Assembly (NCBI GenBank): GCA_945865815.1
Contig: CAMBFR010000029.1
Coordinates: 1-37,526, forward strand
DNA length: 37,526 nt
DNA from: Candidatus Sulfopaludibacter sp. SbA3
GTDB taxonomy: Bacteria > Acidobacteriota > Terriglobia > 20CM-2-55-15
Direction: 5' to 3'
The notes beneath the pieces were generated by a model. It made no database searches, was not told the DNA's origin, and saw nothing but the letters and a program-made list of their open reading frames with translations. Positions 25,964 through 29,081 of the stretch are shown in pieces. Both the position numbers and the translations under genes were made by a program. Each line of letters begins with the position of its first letter. The first letter of the stretch is position 1.

Positions 25964-26839
25964 TTACGCCCAGTCTTTCGGATGGAAGAATTCCAGGGCC
26001 GCCTCTTCGACCGATCCTGGTTCGGCCTTGAAGTCGTAAACCCAGCGCACAAGCGGGGGCAGGCTCATCAATATCGATTCGGTGCGGCCGCGGGTTTCGA
26101 GTCCAAAAATCGTTCCGCGGTCGTAGAGCAAATTGAACTCCACGTATCGTCCGCGCCTGTAAAGCTGATATTGGCGCTCGCGTTCGCCATAAGGCTCATT
26201 CATCCGCCGGAGCGCGATCGGCACATAGGCCTCCAGAAACGAGTCTCCCAGATCCCGGACAAACGCGAAATTGCGCTCCGTATCGCCCTCGAGATAATCA
26301 AAGAACACGCCCCCGATTCCGCGCATTTCGGCGCGGTGCTTTAACGTGAAGTATTCATCGCACCACTTCTTGAATCGCGGGTAGAAGTCCGCGCCGTGCT
26401 TGTCGCAGGCGGCCTTCAGTGTGCGGTGAAAATGTTGGGCGTCTTCGGCATGCGGATAACATGGAGTAAGGTCGGTGCCGCCTCCAAACCACGACGACTC
26501 TCCTTTTTCCAGATATCGGAAGTTGGCATGAACCGCGGGCACTGCCGGACTGCGCGGGTGAAACACCAAAGACACGCCTGTGGCAAAAAACTCCGTTCCG
26601 GTACCCAGTGGAATCTTGGCTGCGAACTCCGGTGGCAGACTCCCGTGGACCGAAGAGAAATTCACTCCAGCCTTCTCAAACACGTTTCCTCCTTCCAGAA
26701 CGCGAGTGCGGCCGCCGCCGCCACCCTCACGCGACCACGTATCTTCCCGGAAGGGAGTGCCATCGATCTCCGCGATCGCCTGCGAGATCCGGTGCTGGAG
26801 ATCCTTGAAATAGGTTTCGGCCTTTTCACGCCACGTCAT
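25964..26839 (-). CDS. hemF: Oxygen-dependent coproporphyrinogen III oxidase
   Basis: 291 residues. This haem-biosynthesis enzyme decarboxylates coproporphyrinogen III to protoporphyrinogen IX using O2. The diagnostic blocks are all present: GGGRTRVLEGGNVFEKAGVN, SLVFHPRSPAVPAVHANFRY, SSWFGGGTDLTPCY, RGIGGVFFDYLEGD and GRYVEFNLLYDRGT. The conserved His residues of the active site are retained. The presence of the aerobic form indicates an organism that meets oxygen. The gene is monocistronic or first before the peptidase gene, and diverges from the disulfide oxidoreductase gene with a 38-bp gap that must hold both promoters. Confidence 0.97.
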   Translation of the reverse strand: MTWREKAETYFKDLQHRISQAIAEIDGTPFREDTWSREGGGGGRTRVLEGGNVFEKAGVNFSSVHGSLPPEFAAKIPLGTGTEFFATGVSLVFHPRSPAVPAVHANFRYLEKGESSWFGGGTDLTPCYPHAEDAQHFHRTLKAACDKHGADFYPRFKKWCDEYFTLKHRAEMRGIGGVFFDYLEGDTERNFAFVRDLGDSFLEAYVPIALRRMNEPYGERERQYQLYRRGRYVEFNLLYDRGTIFGLETRGRTESILMSLPPLVRWVYDFKAEPGSVEEAALEFFHPKDWA

Positions 26840-26877: not shown

Positions 26878-27558
26878 ATGGCCTTTCTGTCCGACGACGA
26901 GCGAAACGAGATCCGGAAAGTGTTCGAGCAACTCCGTGCAGACGTGAAGCTGGTGTACTTCACCGATCGGGACTCGCCCGTGTTCATACCGGGCGAGGAA
27001 TGCGCCACCTGCAAAGACACGCGTCTGCTGCTCGAGGAAGTGGCGGCGTTGTCCGACAAGCTGCACCTCGAGATTCACGAGTTTGCAGCCGGAAGCGAGC
27101 TCGCGCGCGAGCACGGAATTGAGCGAATACCGGCGCTGGTCATATCTTCCGACAGCGTGAAGGGCAAGGTTCGATATTTCGGGATGCCGTCGGGATATGA
27201 ATTCTCGGTTCTGCTCGGCTCAATCATTGATGCGTCACAGGGGACGGCCGGGCTTGCGGAGGAAACCATCGAGGCCCTGAGCGGCATTTCGGCGGACGTT
27301 CACATTCAGGTCTTCGTGACTCCCACCTGACCCTACTGCCCACCAGTGTGCAGGTTGGCACACCAGATGGCGATTGAGAATTCGCACGTGACGGCAGACG
27401 TCGTGGAAGTGACCGAGTTTCCGCCTCTCGTTGAACGATACGCGATCCGTGGTGTGCCGAAGACTGTGATCAATGACAGTGTGGAGTTCGTTGGTTCAGC
27501 CTCGGAAGCGCAATTCATCGGGTATCTGCAGCGTGCCGTTGCGCCTGCACCGAACTGA
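26878..27558 (+). CDS. Protein disulfide oxidoreductase (PDO-like), candidate selenoprotein with UxxC active site
   Basis: Read through one in-frame TGA, this is a 226-residue protein with two thioredoxin folds, the architecture of thermophile PDO/glutaredoxin-like proteins. The N-terminal unit (1-about 115) has a CATC motif (Cys42, Cys45) and a cis-Pro in RIPALV. The C-terminal unit (about 120-226) has FVTPT-TGA-PYC, where the family has TPTCPYC, and a cis-Pro in GVPKTV. The TGA (27328-27330) falls exactly on the first catalytic Cys, at residue 151. Homology continues without shift on both sides (ADVHIQVFVTPT, then CRLAHQMAIENSHVTADVV). A hairpin 15 nt downstream fits a bacterial SECIS. The start ATG has GAGGTGA upstream. 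The likely role is cytosolic thiol-disulfide exchange or reductase activity. The alternative is a recent nonsense mutation (TGC to TGA); no selABCD gene is in the window. Confidence 0.82.
27346..27363 (+). promoter_or_regulatory. Candidate bacterial SECIS hairpin
   Basis: GTGTGC (27346-27351) and GCACAC (27358-27363) form a perfect 6-bp stem closing the loop AGGTTG. Outer GCC/GGC pairs can extend it. The loop's GGT lies 22 nt after the TGA at 27328-27330, within the spacing known for bacterial SECIS elements. The stem and loop closely resemble the E. coli fdhF element, whose apical loop is AGGUCU on a UGC/GCA stem. It would recruit SelB so that the UGA is read as selenocysteine. Confidence 0.7.
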
Positions 27559-27713: not shown

Positions 27714-29081
27714 ATGTCCAAAATATCTTCATACAACGTTGAAATGTTCGTTGCCTCTGTTCGCAATGAATTCGAATCGAAGCTTCAGGAATGGGTGGAG
27801 ATTCCGACAGTCAGCTCCGATCCCGAACACAGGAACGATATCGAGCGCGGAGCGGATGCGGCTGTTTCGTATCTGCGAGCGTTGGGTGCCCAGGCCGAGA
27901 AGGTGCCGACACCCGGAAATCCCGTCGTTGTCGGTAAGTTTGTGACCGGCGCCGGCCGGCCCACCGTCACGATCTACAACCATCTCGATGTACAGCCGGC
28001 AAACGAACCCCAGTGGACGCGGCCCCCATTCGTTTTCCATAAAGACGGCGATACCTACATCGGCCGAGGGACCACAGACGATAAGGGACCGGCCCTCGCC
28101 GCCCTTTTTGGAGCGCGCTTCGCCGTGGAGCAGGGAATTCCCGTCAATATTCAGTTCATCTGGGAGTTCGAAGAAGAAATCGGAAGTCCTCATTTCGAGC
28201 ACTTCATGAAAGGCAACTACAAGCGTCTGGGCACAAAATCCGTCGCTGTTTCCGATACGATCTGGATCTCCCGGGGAAGGCCCGCCGTGGCTTACGGCCT
28301 GAGGGGCCTGGCGCCCATGAGGCTCATACTTGAAACCGGAACGAAAGATGTACATTCCGGCCTGACAGGCGGAGCCGCTCGAAATCCACTAGGGGAACTG
28401 TGCCAGCTCATTGCCGAATGTTACGACGCGCGAACCGGCAAGGTTCATATCCCGGGTTTTTACGACGATGTGGCCAAGCCCGGCAAAGCGGAAATTGCCA
28501 GCTTTCTGGCATCCGGCTTCAATGTGAAGCGCTTCAAGGATGCTCACGAGTTACTGAAACTGCGAAGCTCGGATGCCGAGGAGATCGTGCGCCGGATCTG
28601 GGCGCAGCCGACATTCGAAGTGCATGGCATCGTGGGTGGCTATACGGGCCCGGGAGTCAAGACAGCCATAGCGCCGAAGGCGGAAGCAAAGATCAGCATG
28701 CGGCTGGTGCCCAATCAGAAGCCCGAAAAGGTGTTTCGTCTCGTCCGAAATTTCATCCGGAAGCACAACCCGGATGTGCAGGTTGAACCGGAGTCCTTTC
28801 TGAGTCCATTCCTCGGGCCGAACAAAGGTCCATACGCCGACGCCGCACGCGACGCCATGCGCACCGCCTTTGGGAAGGACCCGGCCTTCGTTCGTGAAGG
28901 AGGATCGATAGGCGCCGTCGTCACGATGCAACATTATCTGAAAGCGCCAATCGTCTTTCTGGGCCTGAGCCTGCCCGAGCACGGGTACCACGCGCCCAAC
29001 GAAAACTTTGATTGGGAACAGGCCTCGGGCGGAATGCGCATGTTCGCGCGGTACTTCGAGAATATTTCGAAAATGGGTTAG
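27714..29081 (+). CDS. M20-family dipeptidase
   Basis: 455 residues, a dinuclear zinc peptidase of the M20/M25/M40 clan without a signal peptide. Metal ligands are visible in YNHLDVQP (His, with the following Asp), [10 protein letters not shown] (bridging Asp), FEEEIGS (catalytic and metal Glu) and the C-terminal [11 protein letters not shown] (His). The lid domain includes [18 protein letters not shown] with the conserved His and Gly residues. The length and motifs match carnosinase/PepV-like dipeptidases that hydrolyse dipeptides or N-acyl amino acids. A 155-bp gap separates it from the disulfide oxidoreductase gene; no hairpin terminator was evident in that gap. Confidence 0.93.

Follow-up and report, generated by a model that had tools for sequence, protein, structure and literature searches.

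A probable selenocysteine-containing PDO from Candidatus Sulfopaludibacter belongs to a UxxC family that is common in Acidobacteriota

A UxxC selenoprotein family is listed in the literature as 'Homolog of AhpF N-terminal domain (Grx-like domain protein)', TIGR02187, and is described as predicted and not experimentally verified (PMC9312934, PMC13188914, PMC1794560). The listed example is ABB15282.1, reported from Carboxydothermus hydrogenoformans (PMC9312934, PMC13188914, PMC1794560). Reviews credit the family to a 2004 paper, a 2006 survey counted two members and named Carboxydothermus and Symbiobacterium, and the family has been reported from Asgard archaea too. The gene described here comes from a member of the Acidobacteriota (Candidatus Sulfopaludibacter-like). 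At 82% identity, the closest named record belongs to the metagenome-assembled 'Candidatus Sulfopaludibacter sp. SbA3', and this genus is placed in the Bryobacterales. The gene falls in the same NCBIfam family as ABB15282.1, with which it was compared by family description, and its predicted selenocysteine (Sec) is likewise the first residue of UxxC.

The preliminary description of this DNA suggested that a selenoprotein of the protein disulfide oxidoreductase (PDO) type would be unusual among bacterial selenoproteins. That view was overstated, as the family is already listed with a UxxC motif, has its own NCBI model (PDO_seleno_TRX) and is common in the phylum. Thus, the gene is best regarded as a well-supported further example of a selenoprotein family that was predicted two decades ago. 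What is added here is the frequency of the family in Acidobacteriota and at least seven switches between Sec and Cys; our literature search found no paper describing that frequency, which is weak evidence of absence.

The gene lies in the window, by which we mean the whole 37,526-nucleotide stretch that was analyzed, and its features are listed in Table 1. The frame runs from an ATG to a terminal TGA and contains one internal stop, the TGA at codon 151. No second internal stop and no frameshift was found between the two ends of the frame, so the two open stretches in the same register, split by a single TGA, were just as the preliminary description had presented them. The same held for the two redox motifs, an intact CATC in the N-terminal half and a CPYC that reads UPYC in the C-terminal half. 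The 17 other TGA read-throughs listed in the window, which mechanically resemble redox motifs by motif pattern alone, are random background. Our search found the PDO gene once in the genome, which is 98% complete (4.34 Mb in 193 contigs).

Table 1. Positions of the predicted Sec-containing PDO gene, its parts, its neighbors and other genes discussed in the text (window coordinates unless a contig is given)
Feature	Position	Strand	Remarks
Sec-containing PDO gene (predicted)	26878..27558	+	TGA at codon 151 read through; 226 codons, then stop TGA
N-terminal redox motif C-A-T-C	27004..27015	+	residues 43-46
Sec codon TGA (predicted)	27328..27330	+	position 1 of C-terminal motif U-P-Y-C (residues 151-154)
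P-Y-C, remainder of C-terminal motif	27331..27339	+	includes presumed resolving Cys154
Candidate bacterial SECIS hairpin GUGUGC-AGGUUG-GCACAC	27346..27363	+	6-bp stem, 6-nt loop starting AG
hemF, oxygen-dependent coproporphyrinogen oxidase	25964..26839	-	divergent neighbor; NF003727, 419 bits
M20-type dipeptidase-like gene	27714..29081	+	downstream neighbor; best NCBIfam NF006053, 345 bits, under cut-off of 441
selD (L021)	own genome, contig C15, 15603-16520	-	TGA at SAGUAGKL
Formate dehydrogenase-like/molybdopterin oxidoreductase gene (L128)	own genome, contig C51, 4027-5304	-	single in-frame TGA at NRTUHAPS
Sec-type PDO gene of G341	contig C126, 182557-183192		

The read-through product matched NCBIfam TIGR02187 (PDO_seleno_TRX) with 248.3 bits against a cut-off of 185 (E 4.5e-74). 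The match spanned residues 6-219 of the protein and positions 2-208 of the 209-position profile, and each of the two thioredoxin folds carried one redox motif. Pfam Thioredoxin_3 was also matched. The best solved relative was the P. furiosus-type PDO 1A8L (E 1.3e-41), for which the alignment ran through the TGA and both domains, and solved PDO structures aligned across nearly the entire protein. Together, these matches substantiated the complete two-thioredoxin-fold PDO architecture that had been proposed for the joined protein. Archaeal and Aquifex-type PDOs (PDB 1A8L, 1J08, 2AYT, 2YWM, and 2HLS) are likewise tandem thioredoxin folds. In 1A8L, a CPYC occupies the place of the UPYC, with Cys in the TGA column, and the N-terminal motif is CQYC instead of CATC. 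The N-terminal domain of AhpF (PDB 1ZYN and 1HYU) is a homologous tandem thioredoxin-fold region. However, AhpF has a fused reductase domain that is absent here: the frame ends after residue 226, and the product scored 73 bits against an AhpF cut-off of 502.9. In plasmid records, we found just a few distant relatives, with about 25-32% identity among the matches listed.

The preliminary description placed the TGA exactly where relatives have Cys, and the relatives agreed. Six of the 11 genomes examined from the family, our own included, have the gene, and all six have the TGA, at identities of 61-100%. In the phylum sample, 86 of 396 genomes had a match, and an internal TGA was present in a PDO-type match in 30 of them; the TGA of G296 is a terminal stop. 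In an alignment of 98 relatives (archaeal ones included), the codon column held TGA in 34 rows, TGC in 40, TGT in 24 and nothing else; two of the TGA rows are duplicates (L090 and L091 repeat L084 and L085), and the check covered the fetched genes, leaving out the TGA genomes G213, G167, G355, G125, and G367 and the second copy of G391. In the fetched and aligned relatives, the TGA was invariably in the C-terminal catalytic column, the pattern of an in-frame TGA at a catalytic Cys position with Cys homologues. No stop occurred at an unrelated position in the conserved part of any aligned relative. The N-terminal CxxC is kept in many, although not all, of the Sec-containing relatives. In L058, L059, L062, L065, L067, L069, L070, and L083, only the C-terminal UxxC is present, and the N-terminal CxxC is absent from the matched stretch.

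A search of the genome for selA, selB, selC, and selD recovered all four. The tRNA-Sec scored 69.9 bits and was called SeC with anticodon tca (UCA) by ARAGORN, and selB, selA, and selD scored 387, 564, and 362 bits, respectively. The tRNA-Sec, selB, selA, and selD genes are spread over four contigs (C16, C43, C13, and C15). Within selD itself, an in-frame TGA lies at SAGUAGKL, the position that is usually Sec or Cys in SelD proteins. The TGA in the formate dehydrogenase-like gene is where formate dehydrogenase is known to carry Sec, which makes this a classic selenoprotein gene. Because these two TGAs are at known Sec sites, the organism needs Sec decoding independently of the PDO gene. Across the phylum sample, selA was over the cut-off in 29 of 30 genomes with the TGA and in 13 of 35 genomes with Cys (Fisher p 2e-7, shared ancestry ignored). 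The one TGA genome in which selA was not over the cut-off, G341, is likely to have an assembly gap there because its tRNA-Sec match is strong (72.8 bits). In a genome of the same genus (G402, 81% complete), no selA match was found and the tRNA-Sec scored 69.5 bits.

In the published model, a bacterial SECIS, the signal for Sec insertion, has an apical loop of 3-9 nt, a stem of 4-16 bp, and a G in loop positions 1-2; the loop lies 16-37 nt after the UGA, and the energy is -7.5 kcal/mol or lower (PMC13188914). The preliminary description called for a SECIS search after the TGA, and a SECIS-like hairpin was found there. Its loop begins 21 nt after the UGA with G as the second nucleotide, and the hairpin alone has an energy of -8.0 kcal/mol, so that every feature falls within the published ranges. 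Codons 153-166, which contain the hairpin, showed no synonymous differences from the same-genus relative L084 in 13 comparable codons, compared to 31% gene-wide, making this the lowest stretch in the gene. A strict no-bulge hairpin test was passed by 19 of the 31 genes with TGA and by 5 of the 64 with Cys (p 6e-8), and the median synonymous-shuffle z was -1.15 for TGA genes and -0.20 for Cys genes (p 9e-6), both p values being rough because related sequences are not independent. Under synonymous recoding, the expected pass rates in the strict test were 16% for TGA genes and 6% for Cys genes. The gene's own hairpin showed no extra stability relative to synonymous recodings (z -0.14), and the 56-nt fold was not unusual relative to shuffled sequence (z -0.33). 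Since the energy of the hairpin is unexceptional, the candidate SECIS rests on conservation and on its fit to the model. For a single gene such energy comparisons say little; the synonymous conservation and the comparison between TGA and Cys genes are the informative results. An Rfam search over the gene returned no family, just a chance match to a CRISPR repeat (E 4.7). In one Cys-type relative (L041, CAYC), whose genome has selA, a hairpin of -7.9 kcal/mol located at 18 nt is still accepted by the SECIS test and is perhaps the remnant of a lost Sec form.

We compared substitution rates on the two sides of the TGA. Relative to L084, dS/dN was 0.60/0.086 before the TGA (150 codons; dN/dS 0.145) and 0.58/0.109 after it (75 codons; dN/dS 0.186). 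Relative to L085, dN/dS was 0.140 before the TGA and 0.117 after it. The low values downstream indicated that translation continues past the TGA and that purifying selection acts on the codons beyond it. The surroundings of the gene are also conserved in the family. The hemF gene adjoins the PDO gene in L084-L086, L088, L090, and L091, and the M20 dipeptidase-like gene lies downstream of it in L085, L086, L090, and L091.

Taken on the sequence evidence, it is very probable that this is one intact gene in which UGA specifies Sec at the active site of a 226-residue two-thioredoxin-fold PDO, decoded through SelB, tRNA-Sec, and a SECIS. The TGA is formally a premature stop and Cys homologues are common, as would be expected if a nonsense mutation had struck a decaying PDO gene. 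Such a pseudogene is extremely unlikely, and the idea was in effect refuted because the TGA is conserved with purifying selection downstream: it is retained in relatives down to 61% identity, it is always in the catalytic Cys column, the dN/dS after it (0.12-0.19) is similar to that before it, and the frame shows no other sign of decay. The earlier preference for Sec insertion over pseudogenization was therefore upheld by the sel genes, the TGA/Cys column, the hairpin, and the lack of decay stops. A sequencing or assembly error that hides a true TGC is hardly conceivable. Although the assembly is a draft of 193 contigs and a single base separates TGA from a Cys codon, the same TGA is found in other genomes of the genus and family that were assembled separately and in many genomes of the phylum sample, and its presence in independent genomes refuted this explanation.

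Alternatively, the locus might make two proteins, one of 150 residues that ends with the TGA and one of 70 residues that restarts at a GTG at 27346, or it might use the TGA for regulated truncation. A restart product would lack both U151 and C154 despite the conservation of the UPYC segment, and the Cys relatives make one continuous protein. We consider this arrangement very unlikely, even though a GTG-started open reading frame is present at 27346-27558 and, as a matter of general knowledge, some termination at UGA is expected when selenium is scarce. Any kind of read-through would restore the frame, including insertion of Trp or Cys through codon reassignment or suppression. That UGA is read as another residue is nevertheless highly improbable, given that the gene's own terminal stop is TGA (27556-27558) and that the genome combines a complete Sec machinery with TGAs at two classic Sec sites.

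Sec insertion at codon 151 is strongly supported, and the relatives suggest how the protein may work. The UGA would be decoded as Sec by SelB and tRNA-Sec(UCA), directed by the putative SECIS hairpin within the coding sequence just 3' of the UGA. Sec151 and Cys154 would form the C-terminal UPYC pair, which presumably is a selenenylsulfide when oxidized and would exchange with substrate disulfides. By analogy with PDO and AhpF, Sec151 would attack the substrate disulfide, and Cys154 would resolve the mixed selenosulfide. Electrons are presumably passed on by the N-terminal CATC pair, which, again by analogy with PDO and the N-terminal domain of AhpF, may receive them from a thioredoxin reductase-like donor. 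Because several Sec relatives without the N-terminal CxxC keep U-x-x-C, the comparison suggests that the essential redox pair is the C-terminal one.

Because standard annotation splits such genes or labels them broken, the count of acidobacterial selenoproteins is too low. In a tree of 95 sequences, the distribution of Sec and Cys required at least seven changes of state, and Sec was found mainly in two separate clades. Most members of the clade that contains the window's gene have an AGG-type loop about 21-22 nt after the UGA; in the other Sec clade, the loop is mostly of the GGU or CGU type and follows the UGA by 16-18 nt. The repeated switching in acidobacterial PDOs and the differently built SECIS of the two clades could reflect independent gains of Sec, an idea that we put forward tentatively and at somewhat less than even chances; separate gains and several losses of an old Sec form are both possible. 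Within the phylum, Sec and Cys forms of the same redox enzyme occur in close relatives, which provides a natural experiment on what an oxidoreductase gains from Sec. In one genus (g182), for example, L052 has Cys and L056 has Sec at the same site, and both genomes have selA.
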